64,000 bases of DNA from Lepisosteus oculatus (lineage: Eukaryota; Chordata; Actinopteri; Semionotiformes; Lepisosteidae). The DNA is taken from the NCBI RefSeq assembly GCF_040954835.1, contig NC_090699.1, positions 16,485,817 to 16,549,816 of the forward strand, given 5' to 3'. A program made the position numbers and the translations under genes. Shown in pieces: positions 20,474 through 62,485 of this stretch. Each line of letters starts with the position of its first letter. Positions within the stretch are counted from its first letter, which is position 1. The notes beneath the pieces are model-generated. The model searched no databases. It was not told where the DNA came from and was given only the letters and a program-made list of their open reading frames with translations.

Positions 20474-20494
20474 GGGCCACTTGCTTTCTTGCTC

Positions 20495-25302: not shown

Positions 25303-26249
25303 GGTGCGAGTCTGGAGCTCTGGGAGCCAGGTGCTCTCCTTTAGCCTCTGCGACTTCTGATAGGTTCTCCTCCACTCAACGTCCTTCAGCTGTCAAGCAT
25401 TAAAGGGCCACGCCTCCTTCCCCACCTCAGTCTGCACCGAGTGCGTCTCCGGCATTTTCTCGTCCGATTTGGCAGCTTAGCAAATGAAAAGTATATCCGA
25501 GTGAAAACGGTGGTGAGAATACTCTCACGAATCCTTAGAAGACGTGCGTTTGATCAACGATTGCTTAACATTCACATTCGAGCCATCAAGCTCGTAGTTT
25601 TCCTTCAAATATTGAAAGCTGTCAGCGAGCACATCACGCTCTGCAGGACGGTGAAGTATTTGGAGTACTTCAACAGAAAGAAGAGCAGACAGCTCCACAA
25701 ATATGCGAGGCGCAGAGAGCGCAAGGCGAGCCCCGCACACGTTTCGGTGGCTGAGAGAGGGCGGTTTTTGCTTCTGCATTTCTCAAGTAATGGCGCATGA
25801 CGACAAGCGATCGCGGTGCTCATTTACCACATAGCGGTGAGGAGTTTTCAGGACGTGTTCTTTTGAACGAGCAACGAGGTTGCCGCCTTGGACAGCTGAC
25901 TGCACGCTGGCATTGTGCCACGTGATGAGGATTGACCAGGCTCCTTCAGTCATCAGTCACCTTCCATCGTTTGCCGTAAGCAGACGCTGCGAGGTGATGT
26001 GGATATCAGGTCCCAGGAGTGTGGAAGAGGAGGAAAAGGGCTCGTCCGGGATTTGAACCCGGGACCTCTCGCACCCAAAGCGAGAATCATACGCCTAGAC
26101 CAACCCAGTGGGCAAAAGATGTATAATATACGTCTATTAAACGTATACCTTAGACGTCTAAATGTGGTCTACAATTCGTCTAGAATGAAATTCTAATATA
26201 CGTCTAAAGTTATACGTCAATTATACGTCTATGTTTAGACGTTCATTAT

Positions 26250-26597
26250 ACATAAATGGTTGGAGTTCTATTATACGGATAAATTTAGAGGACTATTATA
26301 CATATATGGTTGGAGTTCCGGATAACTTTAGAGGTCTATTATACGCATAACTTTAGAGGACTATTATACGTATATGGTTAGAGGTCTATTATACGGATAA
26401 CTTTAGAGGACTATTATACGTATATGGTTAGAGGTCTATTATACGTATAACTTTAGACGTCTATTATACGTATATGGTTAGAGGTCTATTATACGTATAT
26501 GGTTAGAGGTCTATTATACGGATAACATTAGAGGTCTATTATACGTATATGGTTAGAGGTCTATTATACGGATAACATTAGAGGTCTATTATACATC
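26250..26597. repeat. 25-bp minisatellite inside transposon copy 1
   Basis: Units alternate between GGTCTATTATACGTATATGG + TTAGA and GGTCTATTATACGGATAAC + ATTAGA. Copies 2 and 3 of the transposon have two and one fewer unit. Confidence 0.85.
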
Positions 26598-28549
26598 AAA
26601 GACAGATTTTATAGGTGTAGAAACAAGTAAACCAAGCCAATGATTAGGTTTAGAAATTTATTCTGAAAATACACATTCACACCTGAAACATACGTATTTC
26701 AAATTATACATTGTATACAATCAATCAACAATCAACATATGGGCAATAATCATAAAAAACACAACTAGTTTTAAACTTCAGCTACAAATTCTGGTAACAT
26801 GGCAATATACAGTCTAGTAATGACAAACACAAAACTAATTACATTAACACACTAACTCAAAACCACATTTTGATTCAAATATACATTTTAAAATGTACAA
26901 CTTCTATATTTCCAAGAAAAAAAATATTACAATGGAAGTTAAGACGATTTTTGTCCACTATTTGCAAACCCTGTCTAATTGTCCTAACAGTTAGAACCAA
27001 AAACCTATTATTTTCAGAGTCCAGATCTCCTGGCCCCCTGCCTTGCATATGCATTCTTCAAGTAACACATTGCATGCTCCTTTATTTCTTTTTCTGTTGA
27101 TGTAGGGTGGGACTTCAGCACCGCAGCTAGGAGAAAATTATATAATATTACTTCCCAAATAAATGATGATTAATATCTTCTTTAGTATAATCTAAAAAAT
27201 GAACGGTTTACTAAGCTCAAAGCTGAAATAAATGTATAAAATTTGGCTTGCATCATAGCAGTTGAGCAATAAAGTCTGTCCTAATTACCCAAAGTTTGAA
27301 AGTACAACATAGAATAAGAATAAGAGAAACGGCAAAACGATTTTGTGTCATCTTCCCCATTCACACTATTTTATGTGCCATTTTTTTGCTTATTCACGTA
27401 CTATTTTAATCAAAATAATATTAAGAAAGATCTGTATGTATTCAGATAGTATTATTATTGTTCATACTTACTCGTCAAAAGAGGATTGCTGAGATATTTG
27501 CAGATATACTTCTACGTTTGAAAAACGTGTCCAAAATGGTGACCAACGAATACTAGCAATGCATTGTGGTATATAACCGGAAAATATGCTGGGTTCGATA
27601 TTTTCTCAACGTATGCGTTTATTAATGTTGTCGATATTATGGTTGAAATTTAACATTGATAATACATCGCGGCTATGTGCCCCCTGCTATGAGCTGATGT
27701 GCAATTTTAACGCATGCAGTTAGTAAGGATCGGTCACTGTTGTATGGTATTATATATAATGACATTATGGAATAGGATGGGGACAGGCCTGGCATCACGG
27801 GGGGAGGGGGGAATGTCGCCCCTTCAGTTTTGGGCAAAAAGATTTACCTAACTTAATTTGCGCCCTAAAAAAATAGTTGTACTTTGTCAATGGTCAGACA
27901 ACACTAAATGACACGAACAGTCACTCAGTCTGTTTGATGTGCAGGAGGGCTATCCGTCCAGGAACTGCACATATCAGTGTCGTTATTGAGTGTCAACATT
28001 ACGATCCTGTTTGCTCAGGTGGACCGATTCCTTGCAGTAGTTTATCATTATACTTAAAATCGTTATATAACTAGGACTAGTTATAGCAGTCTGTGCTTTC
28101 TGTTGGTTTTACAACATTTTTTTCTTAACGATTCAGAACGTCCATGTAGCTGCAAAAATGAACGCTTATGGTACTTTTCGCTCCAGGCAATACAAACCGT
28201 GAGAGTGACGAAAAATGTGAAACTGAACTTCATCGCAAATACCAGATTGCTAGTCGTTATCTTCTATCATGAAGCACTAATCAATGGCATAGCTGCGAGA
28301 TTTCATTTGGGTAGCTGCACCGTACAGCTCCGTTTCAACCGAAATATCACCCCCCCCTCAGAATTTCAGACGCCGCCCTACAGATTTTTCCCCGGGCACC
28401 GCGCACTGATGGGGGACGGGGTGTCCAGGAAATGGTATCAACTTTTGTCAAGAAAATAAAAATAGAAACTCTATAGGCACTCAAACATTTTACTGTTTTT
28501 TTCAGGCAGGTGGCAAGACCCCCTCAGCAAAACCCTTGTATGCCAAGCT

Positions 28550-29052
28550 GTGGGCATTGATTCGTCGAATATACGTATATTTACGGCGAAATTACGTCTA
28601 TACGTATATATACATCGCCTCGACGTATAATCAACGTCGAATTGCAACCGTAAAATCGACGACATGAATAAACGCATATATAACGTCGAAAACACATCTA
28701 ACACAGTGCCTGAGGCTTTTTACTGTATGTATCGTGTGTGCCGCAACTAGGAGTATACGGCACTCTGCACAGTGCACGAAGTAAATTATTTTGGCAGTAA
28801 TTAATTTATTATATTTACTATATGTATTATACACGTGTAGATTAATTACTGCCAAAATAATTTACTTCGTAATTAACAGTAAAAAGCCTCAGGCACTGTG
28901 TTAGATGTGTTTTCGACGTTATATATGCGTTTATTCATGTCGTCGATTTTACGGTTGCAATTCGACGTTGATTATACGTCGAGGCGACGTATATATACGT
29001 ATAGACGTAATTTCGCCGTAAATATACGTATATTCGACGAATCAATGCCCAC
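28550..29052. repeat. Fold-back terminus of transposon copy 1
   Basis: Arms of 177 bp start GTGGGCATTGATTCG on either strand. The inner edge of the left arm repeats the element's own terminal motif (GTGGGCA). Inner palindrome arms 28777-28805 and 28841-28869. Confidence 0.9.
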
Positions 29053-29253
29053 TGGGAACGAGCCACAGCGACTCTTCCGCTTCTGTGTTGTCAGCGAGCT
29101 GGAGGACGGGGGGAGGCGTCATTCGCTCGTCCCGTCAGACCTTCATCAATAAGTCAAGAAAGCCGACTGCCTTGCAGGCGAAGGGCAGTGGACGGCGCCC
29201 GGTAAGAGGGGAACAAGCGGCACAAGGCGACGCCGAGGAGGAAGGGACAGCGA

Positions 29254-29326
29254 GGGGGATTAGCTCACATGGTAGAGCGCTCGCTTTGCATGCGAGAGGT
29301 AGCGGGATCGATGCCCGCATCCTCCA
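29254..29326 (+). tRNA. tRNA-Ala(TGC), U4
   Basis: Consensus; 190 bp right of the transposon end. Confidence 0.97.
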
Positions 29327-29733
29327 GGTGTACGCTGAGCGCTCGGTGTGCCGAAAGGTGTCCTTTAACCCCTGATCACGCCTTGCGAGGAGAGTGTGGA
29401 GCGTTTAGCAGCCACGCCCCCTTTTCATCTTCTCTCTGGCTTAAGTGCGTCTCCGCCACTCTCTCTTGACACTTCATGGCAGCATGTCAGAGGTCCGAGT
29501 GATGTCTTTAATGGCTGAGTGAGGGCACGATGCTGAAGCAGAGAGGCCATTTCAGCCAGAGAGACTTGTTCTAGGTGAGCTGTGAAAGACAGACTCGCGA
29601 CAGAAACAAAGCCCCAAAGTCTCGGGTGAGATCAAAAGGCAAATGCAACACCCAGCAGCGGGTGTCGCAAGATTAGGGAACAGGCGTCTGAAATCCCTGT
29701 GAGGCAAACTTTCCGGCCCGAGTGCCGCAGCTG

Positions 29734-29806
29734 GCCTCGTTGGCGTAGTAGGTAGCGCGTCAGTCTCATAATCTGAAGGTCGTGAGTTCGATCCTCACAC
29801 GGGGCA
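29734..29806 (+). tRNA. tRNA-Met(CAT), U4
   Basis: Consensus; no T4 nearby. Confidence 0.95.
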
Positions 29807-30310
29807 GGGCCACTCGCTTTCTTGCTCTTCTCAGACACTTGCAGCAACTATTCGCTCAGAACCACGTCTGCGTGCCTACCACGTGGAAAGCGTCACCTTT
29901 ACACGGGAGAGGAGCAAAGCCGCACCCCTTTCCTACATAACACTCACATTCAGAGTTAAGTCCACAAATTTGCCCTAACTTTCGCTGGCGCTGCTGTCAG
30001 CCTGCCCCTGTTGCCGATGAAAGGCTCACACAGCGTCATGACAGTTGCAAAACAATGTTCCACACTCCGTAAGCAACAACTTCAGTGTTTCAAGTCACCC
30101 GATATGCCGAGAGTCAAAGGAGCGCAAAACCCCAAGCGTCAAAAGACAAGATGAGTTGATGGAAAGAGCATTGAATTGAGGAGCACAAAAGTTCAGCTCG
30201 TACAATAGGCAAGGAAGGTCTATTCGTGCGTCTTCATCGCACTTGAAAGGACTGCCTTGCAGACCAAGGGCAGCGGGCGGTAAGACATGATGCCGAGAGG
30301 CCTGAAGCGA

Positions 30311-30383
30311 GGGGGATTAGCTCAAATGGTAGAGCGCTCGCTTAGCATGCGAGAGGTAGCGGGATCGATGCCCGCATCCTCCA
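30311..30383 (+). tRNA. tRNA-Ala(AGC), U4
   Basis: Consensus. Confidence 0.97.
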
Positions 30384-31118
30384 GGTGCGAGTCTGGAGCT
30401 CTGGGAGCCAGGTGCTCTCCTTTAGCCTCTGCGACTTCTGATAGGTTCTCCTCCACTCAACGTCCTTCAGCTGTCAAGCACTGAAGGGCCACGCCTCCTT
30501 CCCCACCTCAGTCTGCACCGAGTGCGTCTCCGGCATTTTCTCGTCCGATTTGGCAGCTTAGCAAATGAAAAGTATATCCGAGTGAAAACGGTGGTGAGAA
30601 TACTCTCACGAATCCTTAGAAGACGTGCGTTTGATCAACGATTGCTTAACATTCACATTCGAGCCATCAAGCTCGTAGTTTTCCTTCAAATATTGAAAGC
30701 TGTCAGCGAGCACATCACGCTCTGCAGGACGGTGAAGTATTTGGAGTACTTCAACAGAAAGAAGAGCAGACAGCTCCACAAATATGCGAGGCGCAGAGAG
30801 CGCAAGGCGAACCCCGCACACGTTTCGGTGGCTGAGAGAGGGCGGTTTTTGCTTCTGCATTTCTCAAGTAATGGCGCATGACGACAAGCGATCGCGGTGC
30901 TCATTTACCACATAGCGGTGAGGAGTTTTCAGGACGTGTTCTTTTGAACGAGCAACGAGGTTGCCGCCTTGGACAGCTGACTGCACGCTGGCATTGTGCC
31001 ACGTGATGAGGATTGACCAGGCTCCTTCAGTCATCAGTCACCTTCCATCGTTTGCCGTAAGCAGACGCTGCGAGGTGATGTGGATATCAGGTCCCAGGAG
31101 TGTGGAAGAGGAGGAAAA

Positions 31119-31190
31119 GGGCTCGTCCGGGATTTGAACCCGGGACCTCTCGCACCCAAAGCGAGAATCATACGCCTAGACCAACGAGCC
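31119..31190 (-). tRNA. tRNA-Pro(TGG), U4
   Basis: Consensus for the array, intact, with adjacent TTTT. Confidence 0.96.
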
Positions 31191-31379
31191 ACAGCGACTC
31201 TTCCGCTTCTGTGTTGTCAGCGAGCTGGAGGACGGGGGGAGGCGTCATTCGCTCGTCCCGTCAGACCTTCATCAATAAGTCAAGAAAGCCGACTGCCTTG
31301 CAGGCGAAGGGCAGTGGACGGCGCCCGGTAAGAGGGGAACAAGCGGCACAAGGCGACGCCGAGGAGGAAGGGACAGTGA

Positions 31380-31452
31380 GGGGGATTAGCTCACATGGTA
31401 GAGCGCTCGCTTTGCATGCGAGTGGTAGCGGGATCGATGCCCGCATCCTCCA
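31380..31452 (+). tRNA. tRNA-Ala(TGC), U5
   Basis: A44 to T in the variable loop; otherwise consensus. Confidence 0.95.
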
Positions 31453-31859
31453 GGTGTACGCTGAGCACTCGGTGTGCCGAAAGGTGTCCTTTAACCCCTG
31501 ATCACGCCTTGCGAGGAGAGTGTGGAGCGTTTAGCAGCCACGCCCCCTTTTCATCTTCTCTCTGGCTTAAGTGCGTCTCCGCCACTCTCTCTTGACACTT
31601 CATGGCAGCATGTCAGAGGTCCGAGTGATGTCTTTAATGGCTGAGTGAGGGCACGATGCTGAAGCAGAGAGGCCATTTCAGCCAGAGAGACTTGTGCTAG
31701 GTGAGCTGTGAAAGACAGACTCGCGACAGAAACAAAGCCCCAAAGTCTCGGGTGAGATCAAAAGGCAAATGCAACACCCAGCAGCGGGTGTCGCAAGATT
31801 AGGGAACAGGCGTCTGAAATCCCTGTGAGGCAAACTTTCCGGCCCGTGTGCCGCAGCTG

Positions 31860-31932
31860 GCCTCGTTGGCGTAGTAGGTAGCGCGTCAGTCTCATAATCT
31901 GAAGGTCGTGAGTTCGATCCTCACACGGGGCA
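31860..31932 (+). tRNA. tRNA-Met(CAT), U5
   Basis: Consensus gene; flank reads CCCGTGTGCCGC. Confidence 0.95.
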
Positions 31933-32436
31933 GGGCCACTCGCTTTCTTGCTCTTCTCAGACACTTGCAGCAACTATTCGCTCAGAACCACGTCTGCGTG
32001 CCTACCACGTGGAAAGCGTCACCTTTACACGGGAGAGGAGCAAAGCCGCACCCCTTTCCTACATAACACTCACATTCAGAGTTAAGTCCACAAATTTGCC
32101 CTAACTTTCGCTGGCGCTGCTGTCAGCCTGCCCCTGTTGCCGATGAAAGGCTCACACAGCGTCATGACAGTTGCAAAACAATGTTCCACACTCCGTAAGC
32201 AACAACTTCAGTGTTTCAAGTCACCCGATATGCCGAGAGTCAAAGGAGCGCAAAACCCCAAGCGTCAAAAGACAAGATGAGTTGATGGAAAGAGCATTGA
32301 ATTGAGGAGCACAAAAGTTCAGCTCGTACAATAGGCAAGGAAGGTCTATTCGTGCGTCTTCATCGCACTTGAAAGGACTGCCTTGCAGACCAAGGGCAGC
32401 GGGCGGTAAGACATGATGCCGAGAGGCCTGAAGCGA

Positions 32437-32509
32437 GGGGGATTAGCTCAAATGGTAGAGCGCTCGCTTAGCATGCGAGAGGTAGCGGGATCGATGCCCA
32501 CATCCTCCA
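32437..32509 (+). tRNA. tRNA-Ala(AGC), U5, T-stem mismatch
   Basis: G64 to A gives a C50.A64 mismatch (GATGCCCACATCC). Box B core unaffected. Confidence 0.85.
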
Positions 32510-33244
32510 GGTGCGAGTCTGGAGCTCTGGGAGCCAGGTGCTCTCCTTTAGCCTCTGCGACTTCTGATAGGTTCTCCTCCGCTCAACGTCCTTCAGCTGT
32601 CAAGCATTGAAGGGCCACGCCTCCTTCCCCACCTCAGTCTGCACCGAGTGCGTCTCCGGCAGTTTCTCGTCCGATTTGGCAGCTTAGCAAATGAAAAGTA
32701 TATCCGAGTGAAAACGGTGGTGAGAATACTCTCACGAATCCTTAGAAGACGTGCGTTTGATCAACGATTGCTTAACATTCACATTCGAGCCATCAAGCTC
32801 GTAGTTTTCCTTCAAATATTGAAAGCTGTCAGCGAGCACATCACGCTCTGCAGGACGGTGAAGTATTTGGAGTACTTCAACAGAAAGAAGAGCAGACAGC
32901 TCCACAAATATGCGAGGCGCAGAGAGCGCAAGGCGAGCCCCGCACACGTTTCGGTGGCTGAGAGAGGGCGGTTTTTGCTTCTGCATTTCTCAAGTAATGG
33001 CGCATGACGACAAGCGATCGCGGTGCTCATTTACCACATAGCGGTGAGGAGTTTTCAGGACGTGTTCTTTTGAACGAGCAACGAGGTTGCCGCCTTGGAC
33101 AGCTGACTGCACGCTGGCATTGTGCCACGTGATGAGGATTGACCAGGCTCCTTCAGTCATCAGTCACCTTCCATCGTTTTCCGTAAGCAGACGCTGCGAG
33201 GTGATGTGGATATCAGGTCCCAGGAGTGTGGAAGAGGAGGAAAA

Positions 33245-33316
33245 GGGCTCGTCCGGGATTTGAACCCGGGAACTCTCGCACCCAAAGCGAGAATCATACG
33301 CCTAGACCAACGAGCC
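33245..33316 (-). tRNA. tRNA-Pro(TGG), U5
   Basis: One variable-loop change, G46 to T (plus strand GGGAACTCTC). Shared with U6. Confidence 0.93.
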
Positions 33317-33505
33317 ACAGCGACTCTTCCGCTTCTGTGTTGTCAGCGAGCTGGAGGACGGGGGGAGGCGTCATTCGCTCGTCCCGTCAGACCTTCATCA
33401 ATAAGTCAAGAAAGCCGACTGCCTTGCAGGCGAAGGGCAGTGGACGGCGCCCGGTAAGAGGGGAACAAGCGGCACAAGGCGACGCCGAGGAGGAAGGGAC
33501 AGTGA

Positions 33506-33578
33506 GGGGGATTAGCTCACATGGTAGAGCGCTCGCTTTGCATGCGAGAGGTAGCGGGATCGACGCCCGCATTCTCCA
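33506..33578 (+). tRNA. tRNA-Ala(TGC), U6
   Basis: T59 to C in the T-loop and C68 to T (G5.T68 wobble). Still foldable. Same in U7. Confidence 0.92.
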
Positions 33579-33985
33579 GGTGTACGCTGAGCGCTCGGTG
33601 TGCCGAAAGGTGTCCTTTAACCCCTGATCACGCCTTGCGAGGAGAGTGTGGAGCGTTTAGCAGCCACGCCCCCTTTTCATCTTCTCTCTTGCTTAAGTGC
33701 GTCTCCGCCACTCTCTCTTGACACTTCATGGCAGCATGTCAGAGGTCCGAGTGATGTCTTTAATGGCTGAGTGAGGGCACGATGCTGAAGCAGAGAGGCC
33801 ATTTCAGCCAGAGAGACTTGTGCTAGGTGAGCTGTGAAAGACAGACTCGCGACAGAAACAAAGCCCCAAAGTCTCGGGTGAGATCAAAAGGCAAATGCAA
33901 CACCCAGCAGTGGGTGTCGCAAGATTAGTGAACAGGCGTCTGAAATCCCTGTGAGGCAAACTTTCCGGCCCGAGTGCCGCAGCTG

Positions 33986-34058
33986 GCCTCGTTGGCATAG
34001 TAGGTAGCGCGTCAGTCTCATAATCTGAAGGTCGTGAGTTCGATCCTCACACGGGGCA
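33986..34058 (+). tRNA. tRNA-Met(CAT), U6
   Basis: G12 to A in the D-stem (GCATAG) gives A12.C23; box A still fits its consensus. Confidence 0.92.
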
Positions 34059-34562
34059 GGGCCACTCGCTTTCTTGCTCTTCTCAGACACTTGCAGCAAC
34101 TATTCGCTCAGAACCACGTCTGCGTGCCTACCACGTGGAAAGCGTCACCTTTACACGGGAGAGGAGCAAAGCCGCACCCCTTTCCTACATAACACTCACA
34201 TTCAGAGTTAAGTCCACAAATTTGCCCTAACTTTCGCTGGCGCTGCTGTCAGCCTGCCCCTGTTGCCGATGAAAGGCTCACACAGCGTCATGACAGTTGC
34301 AAAACAATGTTCCACACTCCGTAAGCAACAACTTCAGTGTTTCAAGTCACCCGATATGCCGAGAGTCAAAGGAGCGCAAAACCCCAAGCGTCAAAAGACA
34401 AGATGAGTTGATGGAAAGAGCATTGAATTGAGGAGCACAAAAGTTCAGCTCGTACAATAGGCAAGGAAGGTCTATTCGTGCGTCTTCATCGCACTTGAAA
34501 GGACTGCCTTGCAGACCAAGGGCAGCGGGCGGTAAGACATGATGCCGAGAGGCCTGAAGCGA

Positions 34563-34635
34563 GGGGGATTAGCTCAAATGGTAGAGCGCTCGCTTAGCAT
34601 GCGAGAGGTAGCGGGATCGATGCCCGCATCCTCCA
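34563..34635 (+). tRNA. tRNA-Ala(AGC), U6
   Basis: Consensus. Confidence 0.97.
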
Positions 34636-35370
34636 GGTGCGAGTCTGGAGCTCTGGGAGCCAGGTGCTCTCCTTTAGCCTCTGCGACTTCTGATAGGTTC
34701 TCCTCCGCTCAACGTCCTTCAGCTGTCAAGCATTGAAGGGCCACGCCTCCTTCCCCACCTCAGTCTGCACCGAGTGCGTCTCCGGCATTTTCTCGTCCGA
34801 TTTGGCAGCTTAGCAAATGAAAAGTATATCCGAGTGAAAACGGTGGTGAGAATACTCTCACGAATCCTTAGAAGACGTGCGTTTGATCAACGATTGCTTA
34901 ACATTCACATTCGAGCCATCAAGCTCGTAGTTTTCCTTCAAATATTGAAAGCTGTCAGCGAGCACATCACGCTCTGCAGGACGGTGAAGTATTTGGAGTA
35001 CTTCAACAGAAAGAAGAGCAGACAGCTCCACAAATATGCGAGGCGCAGAGAGCGCAAGGCGAGCCCCGCACACGTTTCGGTGGCTGAGAGAGGGCGGTTT
35101 TTGCTTCTGCATTTCTCAAGTAATGGCGCATGACGACAAGCGATCGCGGTGCTCATTTACCACATAGCGGTGAGGAGTTTTCAGGACGTGTTCTTTTGAA
35201 CGAGCAACGAGGTTGCCGCCTTGGACAGCTGACTGCACGCTGGCATTGTGCCACGTGATGAGGATTGACCAGGCTCCTTCAGTCATCAGTCACCTTCCAT
35301 CGTTTTCCGTAAGCAGACGCTGCGAGGTGATGTGGATATCAGGTCCCAGGAGTGTGGAAGAGGAGGAAAA

Positions 35371-35442
35371 GGGCTCGTCCGGGATTTGAACCCGGGAACT
35401 CTCGCACCCAAAGCGAGAATCATACGCCTAGACCAACGAGCC
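35371..35442 (-). tRNA. tRNA-Pro(TGG), U6
   Basis: G46 to T as in U5. Confidence 0.93.
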
Positions 35443-35631
35443 ACAGCGACTCTTCCGCTTCTGTGTTGTCAGCGAGCTGGAGGACGGGGGGAGGCGTCAT
35501 TCGCTCGTCCCGTCAGACCTTCATCAATAAGTCAAGAAAGCCGACTGCCTTGCAGGCGAAGGGCAGTGGACGGCGCCCGGTAAGAGGGGAACAAGCGGCA
35601 CAAGGCGACGCCGAGGAGGAAGGGACAGTGA

Positions 35632-35704
35632 GGGGGATTAGCTCACATGGTAGAGCGCTCGCTTTGCATGCGAGAGGTAGCGGGATCGACGCCCGCATTC
35701 TCCA
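35632..35704 (+). tRNA. tRNA-Ala(TGC), U7
   Basis: Same two changes as U6. Confidence 0.92.
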
Positions 35705-36111
35705 GGTGTACGCTGAGCGCTCGGTGTGCCGAAAGGTGTCCTTTAACCCCTGATCACGCCTTGCGAGGAGAGTGTGGAGCGTTTAGCAGCCACGCCCCCT
35801 TTTCATCTTCTCTCTTGCTTAAGTGCGTCTCCGCCACTCTCTCTTGACACTTCATGGCAGCATGTCAGAGGTCCGAGTGATGTCTTTAATGGCTGAGTGA
35901 GGGCACGATGCTGAAGCAGAGAGGCCATTTCAGCCAGAGAGACTTGTGCTAGGTGAGCTGTGAAAGACAGACTCGCGACAGAAACAATGCCCCAAAGTCT
36001 CGGGTGAGATCAAAAGGCAAATGCAACACCCAGCAGTGGGTGTCGCAAGATTAGGGAACAGGCGTCTGAAATCCCTGTGAGGCAAACTTTCCGGCCCGAG
36101 TGCCGCAGCTG

Positions 36112-36184
36112 GCCTCGTTGGCATAGTAGGTAGCGCGTCAGTCTCATAATCTGAAGGTCGTGAGTTCGATCCTCACACGGGGCA
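36112..36184 (+). tRNA. tRNA-Met(CAT), U7
   Basis: G12 to A as in U6. Confidence 0.92.
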
Positions 36185-36688
36185 GGGCCACTCGCTTTCT
36201 TGCTCTTCTCAGACACTTGCAGCAACTATTCGCTCAGAACCACGTCTGCGTGCCTACCACGTGGAAAGCGTCACCTTTACACGGGAGAGGAGCAAAGCCG
36301 CACCCCTTTCCTACATAACACTCACATTCAGAGTTAAGTCCACAAATTTGCCCTAACTTTCGCTGGCGCTGCTGTCAGCCTGCCCCTGTTGCCGATGAAA
36401 GGCTCACACAGCGTCATGACAGTTGCAAAACAATGTTCCACACTCCGTAAGCAACAACTTCAGTGTTTCAAGTCACCCGATATGCCGAGAGTCAAAGGAG
36501 CGCAAAACCCCAAGCGTCAAAAGACAAGATGAGTTGATGGAAAGAGCATTGAATTGAGGAGCACAAAAGTTCAGCTCGTACAATAGGCAAGGAAGGTCTA
36601 TTCGTGCGTCTTCATCGCACTTGAAAGGACTGCCTTGCAGACCAAGGGCAGCGGGCGGTAAGACATGATGCCGAGAGGCCTGAAGCGA

Positions 36689-36761
36689 GGGGGATTAGCT
36701 CAAATGGTAGAGCGCTCGCTTAGCATGCGAGAGGTAGCGGGATCGATGCCCGCATCCTCCA
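36689..36761 (+). tRNA. tRNA-Ala(AGC), U7
   Basis: Consensus. Confidence 0.97.
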
Positions 36762-37496: not shown

Positions 37497-37568
37497 GGGC
37501 TCGTCCGGGATTTGAACCCGGGACCTCTCGCACCCAAAGCGAGAATCATACGCCTAGACCAACGAGCC
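37497..37568 (-). tRNA. tRNA-Pro(TGG), U7
   Basis: Array consensus with adjacent TTTT. Confidence 0.96.
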
Positions 37569-50187: not shown

Positions 50188-50260
50188 GGGGGATTAGCTC
50201 AAATGGTAGAGCGCTCGCTTAGCATGCGAGAGGTAGCGGGATCGATGCCCGCATCCTCCA
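50188..50260 (+). tRNA. tRNA-Ala(AGC), U12
   Basis: Consensus. Confidence 0.97.
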
Positions 50261-50995: not shown

Positions 50996-51067
50996 GGGCT
51001 CGTCCGGGATTTGAACCCGGGACCTCTCGCACCCAAAGCGAGAATCATACGCCTAGACCAACGAGCC
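50996..51067 (-). tRNA. tRNA-Pro(TGG), U12
   Basis: Array consensus. Confidence 0.96.
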
Positions 51068-51256
51068 ACAGCGACTCTTCCGCTTCTGTGTTGTCAGCGA
51101 GCTGGAGGACGGGGGGAGGCGTCATTCGCTCGTCCCGTCAGACCTTCATCAATAAGTCAAGAAAGCCGACTGCCTTGCAGGCGAAGGGCAGTGGACGGCG
51201 CCCGGTAAGAGGGGAACAAGCGGCACAAGGCGACGCCGAGGAGGAAGGGACAGCGA

Positions 51257-51329
51257 GGGGGATTAGCTCACATGGTAGAGCGCTCGCTTTGCATGCGAGA
51301 GGTAGCGGGATCGATGCCCGCATCCTCCA
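51257..51329 (+). tRNA. tRNA-Ala(TGC), U13
   Basis: Consensus. Confidence 0.97.
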
Positions 51330-51736
51330 GGTGTACGCTGAGCGCTCGGTGTGCCGAAAGGTGTCCTTTAAACCCTGATCACACCTTGCGAGGAGAGTGT
51401 GGAGCGTTTAGCAGCCACGCCCCCTTTTCATCTTCTCTCTGGCTTAAGTGCGTCTCCGCCACTCTCTCTTGACACTTCATGGCAGCATGTCAGAGGTCCG
51501 AGTGATGTCTTTAATGGCTGAGTGAGGGCACGATGCTGAAGCAGAGAGGCCATTTCAGCCAGAGAGACTTGTGCTAGGTGAGCTGTGAAAGACAGACTCG
51601 CGAAAGAAACAAAGCCCCAAAGTCTCGGGTGAGATCAAAAGGCAAATGCAACACCCAGCAGCGGGTGTCGCAAGATTAGTGAACAGGCGTCTGAAATCCC
51701 TGTGAGGCAAACTTTCCGGCCCGAGTGCCGCAGCTG

Positions 51737-51809
51737 GCCTCGTTGGCGTAGTAGGTAGCGCGTCAGTCTCATAATCTGAAGGTCGTGAGTTCGATCCTCA
51801 CACGGGGCA
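51737..51809 (+). tRNA. tRNA-Met(CAT), U13
   Basis: Consensus. Confidence 0.95.
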
Positions 51810-52313
51810 GGGCCACTCGCTTTCTTGCTCTTCTCAGACACTTGCAGCAACTATTCGCTCAGAACCACGTCTGCGTGCCTACCACGTGGAAAGCGTCACC
51901 TTTACACGGGAGAGGAGCAAAGCCGCACCCCTTTCCTACATAACACTCACATTCAGAGTTAAGTCCACAAATTTGCCCTAACTTTCGCTGGCGCTGCTGT
52001 CAGCCTGCCCCTGTTGCCGATGAAAGGCTCACACAGCGTCATGACAGTTGCAAAACAATGTTCCACACTCCGTAAGCAACAACTTCAGTGTTTCAAGTCA
52101 CCCGATATGCCGAGAGTCAAAGGAGCGCAAAACCCCAAGCGTCAAAAGACAAGATGAGTTGATGGAAAGAGCATTGAATTGAGGAGCACAAAAGTTCAGC
52201 TCGTACAATAGGCAAGGAAGGTCTATTCGTGCGTCTTCATCGCACTTGAAAGGACTGCCTTGCAGACCAAGGGCAGCGGGCGGTAAGACATGATGCCGAG
52301 AGGCCTGAAGCGA

Positions 52314-52386
52314 GGGGGATTAGCTCAAATTGTAGAGCGCTCGCTTAGCATGCGAGAGGTAGCGGGATCGATGCCCGCATCCTCCA
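52314..52386 (+). tRNA. tRNA-Ala(AGC), U13, D-loop mutated
   Basis: G18 to T (CAAATTGTAG) removes a near-invariant base that contacts the T-loop and lies in box A. Likely impaired. Confidence 0.8.
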
Positions 52387-53121
52387 GGTGCGAGTCTGGA
52401 GCTCTGGGAGCCAGGTGCTCTCCTTTAGCCTCTGCGACTTCTGATAGGTTCTCCTCCACTCAACGTCCTTCAGCTGTCAAGCATTAAAGGGCCACGCCTC
52501 CTTCCCCACCTCAGTCTGCACCGAGTGCGTCTCCGGCATTTTCTCGTCCGATTTGGCAGCTTAGCAAATGAAAAGTATATCCGAGTGAAAACGGTGGTGA
52601 GAATACTCTCACGAATCCTTAGAAGACGTGCGTTTGATCAACGATTGCTTAACATTCACATTCGAGCCATCAAGCTCATAGTTTTCCTTCAAATATTGAA
52701 AGCTGTCAGCGAGCACATCACGCTCTGCAGGACGGTGAAGTATTTGGAGTACTTCAACAGAAAGAAGAGCAGACAGCTCCACAAATATGCGAGGCGCAGA
52801 GAGCGCAAGGCGAGCCCCGCACACGTTTCGGTGGCTGAGAGAGGGCGGTTTTTGCTTCTGCATTTCTCAAGTAATGGCGCATGACGACAAGCGATCGCGG
52901 TGCTCATTTACCACATAGCGGTGAGGAGTTTTCAGGACGTGTTCTTTTGAACGAGCAACGAGGTTGCCGCCTTGGACAGCTGACTGCACGCTGGCATTGT
53001 GCCACGTGATGAGGATTGACCAGGCTCCTTCAGTCATCAGTCACCTTCCATCGTTTGCCGTAAGCAGACGCTGCGAGGTGATGTGGATATCAGGTCCCAG
53101 GAGTGTGGAAGAGGAGGAAAA

Positions 53122-53193
53122 GGGCTCGTCCGGGATTTGAACCCGGGACCTCTCGCACCCAAAGCGAGAATCATACGCCTAGACCAACGAGCC
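53122..53193 (-). tRNA. tRNA-Pro(TGG), U13
   Basis: Array consensus. Confidence 0.96.
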
Positions 53194-53382
53194 ACAGCGA
53201 CTCTTCCGCTTCTGTGTTGTCAGCGAGGTGGAGGACGGGGGGAGGCGTCATTCGCTCGTCCCGTCAGACCTTCATCAATAAGTCAAGAAAGCCGACTGCC
53301 TTGCAGGCGAAGGGCAGTGGACGGCGCCCGGTAAGAGGGGAACAAGCGGCACAAGGCGACGCCGAGGAGGAAGGGATAGCGA

Positions 53383-53455
53383 GGGGGATTAGCTCACATG
53401 GTAGAGCGCTCGCTTTGCATGCGAGAGGTAGCGGGATCGATGCCCGCATCCTCCA
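53383..53455 (+). tRNA. tRNA-Ala(TGC), U14
   Basis: Consensus. Confidence 0.97.
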
Positions 53456-53862
53456 GGTGTACGCTGAGCGCTCGGTGTGCCGAAAGGTGTCCTTTAACCC
53501 CTGATCACGCCTTGCGAGGAGAGTGTGGAGCGTTTAGCAGCCACGCCCCCTTTTCATCTTCTCTCTGGCTTAAGTGCGTCTCCGCCACTCTCTCTTGAGA
53601 CTTCATGGCAGCATGTCAGAGGTCCGAGTGATGTTTTTAATGGCTGAGTGAGGGCACGATGCTGAAGCAGAGAGGCCATTTCAGCCAGAGAGACTTGTGC
53701 TAGGTGAGCTGTGAAAGACAGACTCGCGACAGAAACAAAGCGCCAAAGTCTCGGGTGAGATCAAAAGGCAAATGCAACACCCAGCAGCGGGTGTCGCAAG
53801 ATTAGGGAACAGGCGTCTGAAATCCCTGTGAGGCAAACTTTCCAGCCCGAGTGCCGCAGCTG

Positions 53863-53935
53863 GCCTCGTTGGCGTAGTAGGTAGCGCGTCAGTCTCATAA
53901 TCTGAAGGTCGTGAGTTCGATCCTCACACGGGGCA
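53863..53935 (+). tRNA. tRNA-Met(CAT), U14
   Basis: Consensus; the only right-hand copy keeping TTTT downstream. Confidence 0.96.
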
Positions 53936-54439
53936 GGGCCACTCGCTTTCTTGCTCTTTTCAGACACTTGCAGCAACTATTCGCACAGAACCACGTCTGC
54001 GTGCCTACCACGTGGAAAGCGTCACCTTTACACGGGAGAGGAGCAAAGCCGCACCCCTTTCCTACATAACACTCACATTCAGAGTTAAGTGCACAAATTT
54101 GCCCTAACTTTCGCTGGCGCTGCTGTCAGCCTGCCCCTGTTGCCGATGAAAGGCTCACACAGCGTCATGACAGTTGCAAAACAATGTTCCACACTCCGTA
54201 AGCAACAACTTCAGTGTTTCAAGTCACCCGATATGCCGAGAGTCAAAGGAGCGCAAAACCCCAAGCGTCAAAAGACAAGATGAGTTGATGGAAAGAGCAT
54301 TGAATTGAGGAGCACAAAAGTTCAGCTCGTACAATAGGCAAGGAGGGTCTATTCGTGCGTCTTCGTCGCACTTGAAAGGACTGCCTTGTAGCCCAAGGGC
54401 AGCGGGCGGTAAGACATGATGCCAAGAGGCCTGAAGCGA

Positions 54440-54512
54440 GGGGGATTAGCTCAAATGGTAGAGCGCTCGCTTAGCATGCGAGAGGTAGCGGGATCGATGC
54501 CCGCATCCTCCA
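54440..54512 (+). tRNA. tRNA-Ala(AGC), U14
   Basis: Consensus; a 16-bp deletion lies in the spacer that follows. Confidence 0.97.
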
Positions 54513-55231
54513 GGTGCGAGTCTGGAGCTCTGGGAGCCCGGTGCTCTCCTTTAGCCTCTGCGACTTCTGATAGGTTCTCCTCCGCTCAACGTCCTTCAGC
54601 TGTCAAGCATTGAAGGGCCACACCTCCTTCCCCACCTCAGTCTGCACCGAGTGCGTCTCCGGCATTTTCTCGTCCGATTTGGCAGCTTAGCAAATGAAAA
54701 GTATATCCGAGTGAAAACGGTGGTGAGAATACTCTCAGGAATCCTTAGAAGACGTGCTTTTGATCAACGATTGCTTAACATTCACATTCGAGCCATCAAG
54801 CTCGTAGTTTTCCTTCAAATATTGAAAGCTGTCAGCGAGCACATCACGCTCTGCAGGACGGTGAAGTATTTGGAGTACTTCAACAGAAAGAAGAGCAGAC
54901 AGCTCCACAAATACGCAAGGCGAGCCCCGCACACGTTTCGGTGGCTGAGAGAGGGCGGTTTTTGCTTCTGCATTTCTCAAGTAATGGCGCATGACGACAA
55001 GCGATCGCGGTGCTCATTTACCACATAGCGGTGAGGAGTTTTCAGGACGTGTTCTTTTGAACGAGCAACGAGGTTGCCGCCTTGGACAGCTGACTGCACG
55101 CTGGCATTGTGCCACGTGATGAGGATTGACCAGGCTCCTTCAGTCATCAGTCACCTTCCATCGTTTGCCGTAAGCAGACGCTGCGAGGTGATGTGGATAT
55201 CAGGTCCCAGGAGTGTGGAAGAGGAGGAAAA

Positions 55232-55303
55232 GGGCTCGTCCGGGATTTGAACCCGGGACCTCTCGCACCCAAAGCGAGAATCATACGCCTAGACCAACGA
55301 GCC
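55232..55303 (-). tRNA. tRNA-Pro(TGG), U14
   Basis: Array consensus. Confidence 0.96.
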
Positions 55304-55492
55304 ACAGCGACTCTTCCGCTTCTGTGTTGTCAGCGAGCTGCAGGACGGGGGGAGGCGTCATTCGCTCGTCCCGTCAGACCTTCATCAATAAGTCAAGAAA
55401 GCCGACTGCCTTGCAGGCGAAGGGCAGTGGACGGCGCCCGGTAAGAGGGGAACAAGCGGCACAAGGCGACGCCGAGGAGGAAGGGACAGTGA

Positions 55493-55565
55493 GGGGGATT
55501 AGCTCACATGGTAGAGCGCTCGCTTTGCATGCGAGAGGTAGCGGGATCGATGCCCGCATCCTCCA
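55493..55565 (+). tRNA. tRNA-Ala(TGC), U15
   Basis: Consensus; flank variant GAGCATTTAG as in U3. Confidence 0.97.
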
Positions 55566-55972
55566 GGTGTACGCTGAGTGCTCAGTGTGCCGAAAGGTGT
55601 CCTTTAACCCCTGATCACGCCTTGCGAGGAGAGTGTGGAGCATTTAGCAGCCACGCCCCCTTTTCATCTTCTCTCTGGCTTAAGTGCGTCTCCGCCACTC
55701 TCTCTTGACACTTCATGGCAGCATGTCAGAGGTCCGAGTGATGTCTTTAATGGCTGAGTGAGGGCACGATGCTGAAGCAGAGAGGCCATTTCAGCCAGAG
55801 AGACTTGTGCTAGGTGAGCTGTGAAAGACAGACTCGCGACAGAAACAAAGCCCCAAAGTCTCGGGTGAGATCAAAAGGCAAATGCAACACCCAGCAGCGG
55901 GTGTCGCAAGATTAGGGAACAGGCGTCTGAAATCCCTGTGAGGCAAACTTTCCGGCCCGAGTGCCGCAGCTG

Positions 55973-56045
55973 GCCTCGTTGGCGTAGTAGGTAGCGCGTC
56001 AGTCTCATAATCTGAAGGTCGTGAGTTCGATCCTCACACGGGGCA
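55973..56045 (+). tRNA. tRNA-Met(CAT), U15
   Basis: Consensus. Confidence 0.95.
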
Positions 56046-56549
56046 GGGCCACTCGCTTTCTTGCTCTTCTCAGACACTTGCAGCAACTATTCGCTCAGAA
56101 CCACGTCTGCGTGCCTACCACGTGGAAAGCGTCACCTTTACACGGGAGAGGAGCAAAGCCGCACCCCTTTCCTACATAACACTCACATTCAGAGTTAAGT
56201 CCACAAATTTGCCCTAACTTTCGCTGGCGCTGCTGTCAGCCTGCCCCTGTTGCCGATGAAAGGCTCACACAGCGTCATGACAGTTGCAAAACAATGTTCC
56301 ACACTCCGTAAGCAACAACTTCAGTGTTTCAAGTCACCCGATATGCCGAGAGTCAAAGGAGCGCAAAACCCCAAGCGTCAAAAGACAAGATGAGTTGATG
56401 GAAAGAGCATTGAATTGAGGAGCACAAAAGTTCAGCTCGTACAATAGGCAAGGAAGGTCTATTCGTGCGTCTTCATCGCACTTGAAAGGACTGCCTTGCA
56501 GACCAAGGGCAGCGGGCGGTAAGACATGATGCCGAGTGGCCTGAAGCGA

Positions 56550-56622
56550 GGGGGATTAGCTCAAATGGTAGAGCGCTCGCTTAGCATGCGAGAGGTAGCG
56601 GAATCGATGCCCGCATCCTCCA
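56550..56622 (+). tRNA. tRNA-Ala(AGC), U15, T-stem mutated
   Basis: G53 to A, identical to U3; box B altered. Confidence 0.8.
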
Positions 56623-57357
56623 GGTGCGAGTCTGGAGCTCTGGGAGCCAGGTGCTCTCCTTTAGCCTCTGCGACTTCTGATAGGTTCTCCTCCACTCAAC
56701 GTCCTTCAGCTGTCAAGCATTAAAGGGCCACGCCTCCTTCCCCACCTCAGTCTGCACCGAGTGCGTCTCCGGCATTTTCTCGTCCGATTTGGCAGCTTAG
56801 CAAATGAAAAGTATATCCGAGTGAAAACGGTGGTGAGAATACTCTCACGAATCCTTAGAAGACGTGCGTTTGATCAACGATTGCTTAACATTCACATTCG
56901 AGCCATCAAGCTCGTAGTTTTCCTTCAAATATTGAAAGCTGTCAGCGAGCACATCACGCTCTGCAGGACGGTGAAGTATTTGGAGTACTTCAACAGAAAG
57001 AAGAGCAGACAGCTCCACAAATATGCGAGGCGCAGAGAGCACAAGGCGAGCCCCGCACACGTTTCGGTGGCTGAGAGAGGGCGGTTTTTGCTTCTGCATT
57101 TCTCAAGTAATGGCGCATGACGACAAGCGATCGCGGTGCTCATTTACCACATAGCGGTGAGGAGTTTTCAGGACGTGTTCTTTTGAACGAGCAACGAGGT
57201 TGCCGCCTTGGACAGCTGACTGCACGCTGGCATTGTGCCACGTGATGAGGATTGACCAGGCTCCTTCAGTCATCAGTCACCTTCCATCGTTTGCCGTAAG
57301 CAGACGCTGCGAGGTGATGTGGATATCAGGTCCCAGGAGTGTGGAAGAGGAGGAAAA

Positions 57358-57429
57358 GGGCTCGTCCGGGATTTGAACCCGGGACCTCTCGCACCCAAAG
57401 CGAGAATCATACGCCTAGACCAACGAGCC
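57358..57429 (-). tRNA. tRNA-Pro(TGG), U15
   Basis: Intact, hence an empty site matching the split U3 copy. Confidence 0.96.
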
Positions 57430-57618
57430 ACAGCGACTCTTCCGCTTCTGTGTTGTCAGCGAGCTGGAGGACGGGGGGAGGCGTCATTCGCTCGTCCCGT
57501 CAGACCTTCATCAATAAGTCAAGAAAGCCGACTGCCTTGCAGGCGAAGGGCAGTGGACGGCGCCCGGTAAGAGGGGAACAAGCGGGACAAGGCGACGCCG
57601 AGGAGGAAGGGACAGCGA

Positions 57619-57691
57619 GGGGGATTAGCTCACATGGTAGAGCGCTCGCTTTGCATGCGAGAGGTAGCGGGATCGATGCCCGCATCCTCCA
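57619..57691 (+). tRNA. tRNA-Ala(TGC), U16
   Basis: Consensus. Confidence 0.97.
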
Positions 57692-58098
57692 GGTGTACGC
57701 TGAGCGCTCGGTGTGCCGAAAGGTGTCCTTTAACCCCTGATCACGCCTTGCGAGGAGAGTGTGGAGCGTTTAGCAGCCACGCCCCCTTTTCATCTTCTCT
57801 CTGGCTTAAGTGCGTCTCCGCCACTCTCTCTTGACACTTCATGGCAGCATGTCAGAGGTCCGAGTGATGTCTTTAATGGCTGAGTGAGGGCACGATGCTG
57901 AAGCAGAGAGGCCATTTCAGCCAGAGAGACTTGTGCTAGGTGAGCTGTGAAAGACAGACTCGCGACAGAAACAAAGCCCCAAAGTCTCGGGTGAGATCAA
58001 AAGGCAAATGCAACACCCAGCAGCGGGTGTCGCAAGATTAGGGAACAGGCGTCTGAAATCCCTGTGAGGCAAACTTTCCGGCCCGAGTGCCGCAGCTG

Positions 58099-58171
58099 GC
58101 CTCGTTGGCGTAGTAGGTAGCGCGTCAGTCTCATAATCTGAAGGTCGTGAGTTCGATCCTCACACGGGGCA
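58099..58171 (+). tRNA. tRNA-Met(CAT), U16
   Basis: Consensus. Confidence 0.95.
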
Positions 58172-58675
58172 GGGCCACTCGCTTTCTTGCTCTTCTCAGA
58201 CACTTGCAGCAACTATTCGCTCAGAACCACGTCTGCATGCCTACCACGTGGAAAGCGTCACCTTTACACGGGAGAGGAGCAAAGCCGCACCCCTTTCCTA
58301 CATAACACTCACATTCAGAGTTAAGTCCACAAATTTGCCCTAACTTTCGCTGGCGCTGCTGTCAGCCTGCCCCTGTTGCCGATGAAAGGCTCACACAGCG
58401 TCATGACAGTTGCAAAACAATGTTCCACACTCCGTAAGCAACAACTTCAGTGTTTCAAGTCACCCGATATGCCGAGAGTCAAAGGAGCGCAAAACCCCAA
58501 GCGTCAAAAGACAAGATGAGTTGATGGAAAAAGCATTGAATTGAGGAGCACAAAAGTTCAGCTCGTACAATAGGCAAGGAAGGTCTATTCGTGCGTCTTC
58601 ATCGCACTTGAAAGGACTGCCTTGCAGACCAAGGGCAGCGGGCGGTAAGACATGATGCCGAGAAGTCTGAAGCGA

Positions 58676-58748
58676 GGGGGATTAGCTCAAATGGTAGAGC
58701 GCTCGCTTAGCATGCGAGAGGTAGCGGGATCGGTGCTCGCATCCTCCA
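58676..58748 (+). tRNA. tRNA-Ala(AGC), U16, T-loop mutated
   Basis: A58 to G (invariant, the m1A site) and C62 to T (ATCGGTGCTCGC). Both fall in box B. Probably inactive. Confidence 0.75.
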
Positions 58749-59483
58749 GGTGCGAGTCTGGAGCTCTGGGAACCAGGTGCTCTCCTTTAGCCTCTGCGAC
58801 TTCTGATAGGTTCTCTTCCGCTCAACGTCCTTCAGCTGTCAAGCATTGAAGGGCCACGCCTCCTTCCCCACCTCAGTCTGCACCGAGTGCGTCTCCGGCA
58901 TTTTCTCGTCCGATTTGGCAGCTTAGCAAATGAAAAGTATATCCGAGTGAAAACGGTGGTGAGAATACTCTCACGAATCCTTAGAAGACGTGCGTTTGAT
59001 CAACGATTGCTTAACATTCACATTCGAGCCATCAAGCTCGTAGTTTTCCTTCAAATATTGAAAGCTGTCAGCGAGCACATCACGCTCTGCAGGACGGTGA
59101 AGTATTTGGAGTACTTCAACAGAAAGAAGAGCAGACAGCTCCACAAATATGCGAGGCGCAGAGAGCGCAAGGCGAGCCCCGCACACGTTTCGGTGGCTGA
59201 GAGAGGGCGGTTTTTGCTTCTGCATTTCTCAAGTAATGGCGCATGACGACAAGCGATCGCGGTGCTCATTTACCACATAGCGGTGAGGAGTTTTCAGGAC
59301 GTGTTCTTTTGAACGAGCAACGAGGTTGCCGCCTTGGACAGCTGACTGCACGCTGGCATTGTGCCACGTGATGAGGATTGACCAGGCTCCTTCAGTCATC
59401 AGTCACCTTCCATCGTTTGCCGTAAGCAGACGCTGCGAGGTGATGTGGATATCAGGTCCCAGGAGTGTGGAAGAGGAGGAAAA

Positions 59484-62400
59484 GGGCTCGTCCGGGATTT
59501 GAACCCGGGATCTCTCGCACCCAAAGCGAGAATCATACGCCTAGACCAACCCAGTGGGCAAAAGACGTATAATATACGTCTATTAAACGTATACATTAGA
59601 CGTCTAAATGTGGTCTACAATTCGTCTAGAATGAAATTCTAATATACGTCTAAAGTTATACGTCAATTATACGTCTATGTTTAGACGTTCATTATACATA
59701 AATGGTTGGAGTTCTATTATACGGATAAATTTAGAGGACTATTATACATATATGGTTGGAGTTCCGGATAACTTTAGAGGTCTATTATACGCATAACTTT
59801 AGAGGACTATTATACGTATATGGTTAGAGGTCTATTATACGGATAACTTTAGAGGACTATTATACGTATAACTTTAGATGTCTATTATACGTATATGGTT
59901 AGAGGTCTATTATACGTATATGGTTAGAGATCTATTATACGGATAACATTAGAGGTCTATTATACGTATATGGTTAGAGGTCTATTATACGGATAACATT
60001 AGAGGTCTATTATACATCAAAGACAGATTTTATAGGTGTAGAAACAAGTAAACCAAGCCAATGATTAGGTTTAGAAATTTATTCTGAAAATACACATTCA
60101 CACCTGAAACATACGTATTTCAAATTATACATTGTATACAATCAATCAACAATCAACATATGGGCAATAATCATAAAAAACACAACTAGTTTTAAACTTC
60201 AGCTACAAATTCTGGTAACATGGCAATATACAGTCTAGTAATGACAAACACAAAACTAATTACATTAACACACTAACTCAAAACCACATTTTGATTCAAA
60301 TATACATTTTAAAATGTACAACTTCTATATTTCCAAGAAAAAAAATATTACAATGGAAGTTAAGACGATTTTTGTCCACTATTTGCAAACCCTGTCTAAT
60401 TGTCCTAACAGTTAGAACCAAAAACCTATTATTTTCAGAGTCCAGATCTCCTGGCCCCCTGCCTTGCATATGCATTCTTCAAGTAACACATTGCATGCTC
60501 CTTTATTTCTTTTTCTGTTGATGTAGGGTGGGACTTCAGCACCGCAGCTAGGAGAAAATTATATAATATTACTTCCCAAATAAATGATGATTAATATCTT
60601 CTTTAGTGTAATCTAAAAAATGAACGGTTTACTAAGCTCAAAGCTGAAATAAATGTATAAAATTTGGCTTGCATCATAGCAGTTGAGCAATAAAGTCTGT
60701 CCTAATTACCCAAAGTTTGAAAGTACAACATAGAATAAGAATAAGAGAAACGGCAAAACGATTTTGTGTCATCTTCCCCATTCACACTATTTTATGTGCC
60801 ATTTTTTTGCTTATTCACGTACTATTTTAATCAAAATAATATTAAGAAAGATCTGTATGTATTCAGATAGTATTATTATTGTTCATACTTACTCGTCAAA
60901 AGAGGATTGCTGAGATATTTGCAGATATACTTCTACGTTTGAAAAACGTGTCCAAAATGGTGACCAACGAATACTAGCAATGCATTGTGGTATATAACCG
61001 GAAAATATGCTGGGTTCGATATTTTCTCAACGTATGCGTTTATTAATGTTGTCGATATTATGGTTGAAATTTAACATTGATAATACATCGCGGCTATGTG
61101 CCCCCTGCTATGAGCTGATGTGCAATTTTAACGCATGCAGTTAGTAAGGATCGGTCACTGTTGTATGGTATTATATATAATGACATTATGGAATAGGATG
61201 GGGACAGGCCTGGCATCACGGGGGGAGGGGGGAATGTCGCCCCTTCAGTTTTGGGCAAAAAGATTTACCTAACTTAATTTGCGCCCTAAAAAAATAGTTG
61301 TACTTTGTCAATGGTCAGACAACACTAAATGACACGAACAGTCACTCAGTCTGTTTGATGTGCAGGAGGGCTATCCGTCCAGGAACTGCACATATCAGTG
61401 TCGTTATTGAGTGTCAACATTACGATCCTGTTTGCTCAGGTGGACCGATTCCTTGCAGTAGTTTATCATTATACTTAAAATCGTTATATAACTAGGACTA
61501 GTTATAGCAGTCTGTGCTTTCTGTTGGTTTTACAACATTTTTTTCTTAACGATTCAGAACGTCCATGTAGCTGCAAAAATGAACGCTTATGGTACTTTTC
61601 GCTCCAGGCAATACAAACCGTGAGAGTGACGAAAAATGTGAAACTGAACTTCATCGCAAATACCAGATTGCTAGTCGTTATCTTCTATCATGAAGCACTA
61701 ATCAATGGCATAGCTGCGAGATTTCATTTGGGTAGCTGCACCGTACAGCTCCGTTTCAACCGAAATATCACCCCCCCCTCAGAATTTCAGACGCCGCCCT
61801 ACAGATTTTTCCCCGGGCACCGCGCACTGATGGGGGACGGGGTGTCCAGGAAATGGTATCAACTTTTGTCAAGAAAATAAAAATAGAAACTCTATAGGCA
61901 CTCAAACATTTTACTGTTTTTTTCAGGCAGGTGGCAAGACCCCCTCAGCAAAACCCTTGTATGCCAAGCTGTGGGCATTGATTCGTCGAATATACGTATA
62001 TTTACGGCGAAATTACGTCTATACGTATATATACATCGCCTCGACGTATAATCAACGTCGAATTGCAACCGTAAAATCGACGACATGAATAAACGCATAT
62101 ATAACGTCGAAAACACATCTAACACAGTGCCTGAGGCTTTTTACTGTATGTATCGTGTGTGCCGCAACTAGGAGTATACGGCACTCTGCACAGTGCACGA
62201 AGTAAATTATTTTGGCAGTAATTAATTTATTATATTTACTATATGTATTATACACGTGTAGATTAATTACTGCCAAAATAATTTACTTCGTAATTAACAG
62301 TAAAAAGCCTCAGGCACTGTGTTAGATGTGTTTTCGACGTTATATATGCGTTTATTCATGTCGTCGATTTTACGGTTGCAATTCGACGTTGATTATACGT

Positions 62401-62485
62401 CGAGGCGACGTATATATACGTATAGACGTAATTTCGCCGTAAATATACGTATATTCGACGAATCAATGCCCACTGGGAACGAGCC
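59484..62485 (-). pseudogene. tRNA-Pro(TGG), U16, split by transposon
   Basis: 66 nt at 59484-59549, first six nt at 62485-62480; same breakpoint as U3 and U8 and the same GGGATCTCTC variant as U8. Confidence 0.95.
59550..62477. mobile_element. Non-autonomous DNA transposon, copy 3 (2928 bp)
   Basis: Same termini, AA duplication (59548-59549 and 62478-62479) and interior; one 25-bp unit shorter than copy 1 and one longer than copy 2. Fold-back arms 61971-62147 and 62297-62473. Few scattered substitutions, e.g. one near 60608. Confidence 0.9.

Follow-up and report, generated by a model that had tools for sequence, protein, structure and literature searches.

A tRNA array with interrupted tRNA-Pro genes

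The stretch of DNA analysed here, referred to below as the window, is the whole 64,000 nucleotides of C4:16485817-16549816 in the 1.2 Gb genome of Lepisosteus oculatus. It contains a tandem array of transfer RNA (tRNA) genes in which a DNA transposon interrupts several tRNA-Pro genes at the identical position. The array begins about 19.5 kb into the window and extends to about 102 kb in window-equivalent coordinates. Its unit, of about 2126 bp, carries tRNA-Ala (TGC), tRNA-Met and tRNA-Ala (AGC) on the plus strand and tRNA-Pro on the minus strand. We favour the reading, with a probability of about 0.9, that a single chance insertion into one tRNA-Pro gene was then spread by turnover of the array. 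The features on which this reading draws are as follows.

19562..63786, no strand: tandem tRNA array, part inside the window; continues to about window-equivalent 102000
26104..29056, plus strand: element copy 1, 2953 bp, terminal inverted repeats CCCAGTGGGCA/TGCCCACTGGG, without a long open reading frame
39689..42591, plus strand: element copy 2, 2903 bp
59550..62477, plus strand: element copy 3, 2928 bp
C4:16562256-16565107 (window-equivalent 76440-79291): element copy 4, outside the window
26102..26103, no strand: left target site duplication AA of copy 1
29057..29058, no strand: right target site duplication AA of copy 1
26038..26103, minus strand: nucleotides 7-72 of the tRNA-Pro interrupted by copy 1
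29057..29064, minus strand: nucleotides 1-8 of the same gene
39623..39688, minus strand: nucleotides 7-72 of the tRNA-Pro interrupted by copy 2, with a private change common to copies 3 and 4
42592..42599, minus strand: nucleotides 1-8 of the same gene
59484..59549, minus strand: nucleotides 7-72 of the tRNA-Pro interrupted by copy 3
62478..62485, minus strand: nucleotides 1-8 of the same gene

Copies 1-3 have perfect 11-bp terminal inverted repeats with AA at both sides; read in the orientation of tRNA-Pro, the duplicated dinucleotide is TT, nucleotides 7-8 of the gene. An earlier reading of the window from its letters alone (the sequence-only reading) had reported these three copies, their duplication and their position in tRNA-Pro, and all of this is confirmed. 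Copy 4 lies 12.4 kb past the window end. With the element and one AA subtracted, all three interrupted units in the window measure 2126 bp, as do ten of the 13 complete empty units there (the other three being 2108, 2108 and 2110 bp); the final unit, truncated by the window edge, is not counted among the 13. ARAGORN found 29 intact tRNA-Pro genes across the array, 13 in the window and 16 downstream, so that the element is present in four of 33. The interrupted units are scattered among empty ones and form no single block.

The insertion splits the acceptor stem of tRNA-Pro and leaves the rest of the gene on one side. The remainder scores 34.6 bits against Rfam, compared with 51.6-53.2 bits for the window's intact tRNA-Pro genes. 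An interrupted gene of this kind, with its acceptor stem split and its internal promoter kept, would be expected to yield no working tRNA.

In the array's first tRNA-Pro (21786-21857) the anticodon is read as CGG, and in the remaining intact tRNA-Pro genes of the window as TGG; units 1 and 2 are 34-50 substitutions away from later units.

Relatedness of the copies and distribution of the family

Copy 1, used as the query of a similarity search, had 1993 first-look candidates. Forty of these were scored and 30 taken, the four array copies among them. Of the 26 others, we compared 16, from 12 sites; the ten left out were without one or both exact ends in the stretch examined. One of those retained, L024, has a degraded 5' end and its start was set by hand. 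Copies 1-3 differ from one another by seven substitutions and in the number of 25-bp repeats. Any two of the four array copies are 5-9 substitutions apart, and at least 22 separate them from the 16 other copies; all four have in common seven substitutions that are absent from all 16. In a tree they form one clade with a support of 100/100. The copies of two further multi-copy sites also group by site, namely four on C14 (100/100) and L025 with L026 (100/99).

Copies 2, 3 and 4 are linked further, both within the element and outside it. At element position 46 they have A, where copy 1 and all 16 others have C. We compared the flanks of 32 sites that carry the exact motif, of which 28 are empty and four filled; one intact ARAGORN tRNA-Pro without that motif was left out. 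Copies 2-4 have a private change 39 columns to the left, within tRNA-Pro, and two to the right, at 344 and 664 columns; none of these occurs in any of the 28 empty units. The sequence-only reading had tied copies 2 and 3 together by private variants, a link that now extends to copy 4 and rests on flanks and element alike. Units 9 and 17, which adjoin copies 2 and 3 on the right, are three substitutions apart and have a common 18-bp deletion, which is also found in unit 12. As wholes, however, the interrupted units 3, 8 and 16 are not especially alike (10-14 substitutions), and unit 3 is nearest to the empty unit 15, at four substitutions. This suggests that exchange has reshuffled the surroundings of the insertions, and fits unequal exchange or gene conversion.

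The family itself is dispersed. With a pattern of 20 flanking bases followed by CCCAGTGGGCAAAA, which excludes flanks beginning with T, we found at least 475 family ends genome-wide (231 + 244), whereas the reversed-pattern controls gave 1 and 0. Among 100 ends listed, which run in contig order from C1 to part of C14 and are not a random sample, there were 76 distinct flanks (allowing up to three mismatches). Five flanks recurred in this set, occurring 2, 4 (the tRNA-Pro flank), 7, 14 and 2 times. The last two flanking bases were A or T only in 53 of the 76 distinct flanks. The exact tRNA-Pro junction, AGACCAACCCAGTGGGCA, had four matches in the genome, every one in this array (controls 0 and 0); the exact empty target sequence had 422, of which this array contains at least 28.

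At 11 of the 12 other full-length sites the element is bounded by a perfect 2-bp duplication (CT, TG, CT, AA, TT, TT, AT, AA, AC, TG and AC); that of L024 is imperfect (AG/AT). An additional pair, L003/L004, has AT/AT. No duplication of 6-8 bp was visible at the 12 sites. A genome-wide search for the termini was the check by which the sequence-only reading had proposed to separate targeted insertion from a chance hit amplified by the array, with 6-8-bp duplications at other copies counting against its proposal. The search returned scattered sites with 2-bp duplications and a tRNA-Pro junction confined to this array, and the longer duplications did not appear at the 12 sites.

At C9:19851355-19940611 one flank occurs in seven copies, about 13-17 kb apart, as if a single insertion had been copied, and the 14 similar flanks on C14 have the same appearance. 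A second large array with the tRNA-Pro target, at C4:7042768-7192434, accounts for 99 of the 100 target matches listed and has a period of mostly about 1.3 kb. The genome-wide junction search found no exact element junction in it.

Structure and class of the element

The element carries 25-bp tandem repeats at its 5' end and a foldback near its 3' end.

26192..26594, no strand: subterminal 25-bp tandem repeats of copy 1, 16.4 units
39794..40131, no strand: subterminal 25-bp tandem repeats of copy 2, 13.8 units
59655..60017, no strand: subterminal 25-bp tandem repeats of copy 3, 14.8 units
28550..29052, no strand: 3' subterminal foldback of copy 1, 177-bp arms, 99.4% identity

The foldback of copy 1 folds better than all 100 of 100 shuffled sequences. 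In the interior of this copy, 67 bp (27612-27678) are 82% like its own 3' foldback and are perhaps an older end. Copy 1 contains eight open reading frames of at least 60 amino acids, the longest of 133; the sole sub-threshold Pfam match among those scanned (E-value 0.035) was to an unrelated family. A plasmid collection gave no match. Inverted pairs of CCCAGTGGGCA ends at C1:38542688-38551182 (about 8.5 kb) and C1:27982431-27991729 (about 9.3 kb) are possible long relatives. A tandem array at C2:13595818-13606131, which repeats about every 356 bp, has CCCAGTGGGCA in nearly every unit among the matches listed.

We consider that the element probably belongs to the TRC-type CACTA/EnSpm superfamily. 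The terminal inverted repeats of the family start with CCC, and the duplications are 2 bp long and of unfixed sequence, as seen at 11 of the 12 other sites, in this array and at L003/L004. CACTA elements carry subterminal repeats, a trait matched here by the 25-bp repeats. Tc1/mariner, piggyBac and PIF/Harbinger were rejected on their fixed TA, TTAA and three-base duplications.

Animal TRC elements (SmTRC1 and relatives), which are classed as CACTA/EnSpm, have CCC ends and 2-bp duplications, with the end CCCAGTCAAC in Aedes (PMC1636069), and the TRC-type Spongebob of Hydra has the end CCCAGCCAACATTGAC (PMC4298943). Our element resembles them in its CCC-starting ends and 2-bp target site duplications. 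It differs in its arrays of 25-bp repeats near one end and its foldback near the other, and it has neither a recognised transposase nor a confirmed autonomous partner. ISL2EU also makes a 2-bp duplication, but this is AT and the termini are usually GG (PMC4482050), whereas here the dinucleotides vary and the ends are CCC; it was therefore rejected.

Dada elements have no terminal inverted repeats, make 6-7-bp duplications and insert at specific sites in small RNA genes (PMC3706591), among them nucleotides 8-13 of several tRNAs (PMC8869645). The present element resembles them in lying in a multicopy tRNA gene, adjoining that favoured interval, although tRNA-Pro is not among the targets named in the consulted parts of PMC3706591 and PMC8869645. 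Unlike Dada, the family has perfect 11-bp terminal inverted repeats, 2-bp duplications and dispersed sites. It thus departs from Dada in three defining features, and we rejected this assignment, which the sequence-only reading had also thought unlikely. Pokey, a DNA transposon found both in the Daphnia ribosomal DNA array and elsewhere in the genome (PMC3315735), is similar in that our family occupies a tandem RNA gene array as well as other sites; Pokey, however, has a fixed 28S target and no such target is evident here.

Outside these subjects, the left part of the window contains 84-bp tandem repeats, which by eye may belong to a candidate C2H2 zinc-finger gene.

Origin of the shared insertion site

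The neighbourhoods of 14 full-length sites (the 12 sites, L003/L004 and this array) bear on whether the family favours a type of region. Tandem territory, meaning tRNA, histone or satellite arrays, was found at seven of the 14, in a sample biased toward copies like copy 1. L020 lies 43 bp before an ARAGORN tRNA-Ser that is below the Rfam gathering score, and the L025 group occupies a different base of a related tRNA-Ser unit. Four near-identical C14 loci, the L023 group, lie 120 bp away from a tRNA-like gene. Histone H3 and H4 open reading frames, identified by eye, enclose L037, where Rfam found four histone stem-loops; L027 is near an H4-like open reading frame and a U7 match, and L028 is within a 206-bp satellite. 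At six of the seven remaining sites none of these features occurred in roughly 1.5 kb to either side; the Rfam search covered five of the seven, L003/L004 and L024 being outside that set. The seventh, L024, is similar to a portion of the array unit. When incomplete copies (L035, L038, L040, L042 and L047) were added, six of 19 sites had an ARAGORN tRNA in the examined flank or at the site itself. For L047 and L048, near tRNA-Ser and tRNA-Gly, one end was found in the stretch examined; an open reading frame beside them may resemble Polinton-like proteins.

How, then, did four units come to be interrupted at one base? The family is dispersed, the junction occurs here only, the array copies form one clade, and copies 2-4 share changes in both flank and element. 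We therefore conclude that a single chance insertion, copied by array turnover, is the best account, and that the identical position in several units is most likely the result of copying and not of aim. The sequence-only reading had likewise proposed a single insertion that was duplicated together with its unit, and the dispersed sites, single clade, seven diagnostic substitutions and co-travelling flank variants support it. Under this model, the transposon, a non-autonomous member of a dispersed family whose ends are CCC..GGG, would have inserted once into an array tRNA-Pro, duplicating TT at nucleotides 7-8. The interrupted unit would then have reached at least four places through unequal exchange or gene conversion among the units. 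Exchange between units, rather than new transposition, would thus have produced the additional copies, and copy 1 is probably the nearest to the founder. Nothing points to a favouring of interrupted units or to a gain by the element from the array, where it is carried by four of 33 tRNA-Pro genes. Several observations nevertheless weigh against this account. Copy 1 has none of the three private flank changes of copies 2-4, so that its common descent rests on the shared element substitutions and the shared site, and the inner group of copies 2-4 is weakly supported in the tree (85/78). No transposase was recognised in the five of eight copy 1 open reading frames scanned against Pfam, and a genome search with Transposase_21 (PF02992) gave zero matches, its 14 controls being equally silent. 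Finally, 40 of 1993 candidates were scored, and a source element carrying all seven substitutions may lie among the rest.

Recognition of tRNA-Pro nucleotides 7-8 followed by three or four independent, Dada-like entries could also place the element at the identical base in four units, and Dada is known at the neighbouring nucleotides 8-13 of several tRNAs. However, targeting would be expected to reach some other tRNA-Pro targets, and the exact junction is found in one array only despite 422 exact empty targets. Together with the dispersed sites of the family, the single clade with its diagnostic changes and the flank changes common to copies 2-4, this makes targeted insertion very improbable. 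We regard it as slightly less probable still that a single interrupted unit was placed repeatedly during assembly; tandem arrays are generally difficult to assemble, but sequence, repeat number and the haplotypes of the flanking units all vary from copy to copy. A preference for region is a different matter, since it is compatible with a single insertion and additional to it. Here the family would aim at no particular base but would prefer, or survive better in, tandem multigene territory, where turnover also multiplies it. The seven of 14 and six of 19 sites described above speak for such a preference. The sample, however, consists of copies selected for their likeness to copy 1, which over-represents array-amplified, well-preserved copies; the weak score of the tRNA-Ser beside L020 and the six sites without such features also count against it. 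We consider this preference rather less likely than not. It is somewhat more doubtful that a family without a sequence target gathers in tandem arrays by entering those that are open in the germ line, turnover of the array then multiplying it passively. If that were true, region would give a CACTA-like element the access that Dada gains by sequence.

The array provides a clean case in which the same site in several tandem units mimics target specificity, most likely without any. The diagnostic changes of its copies offer a marker with which exchange between the units of a tRNA array can be traced. The case also cautions against inferring a transposon's target preference while multi-copy sites have not been collapsed.

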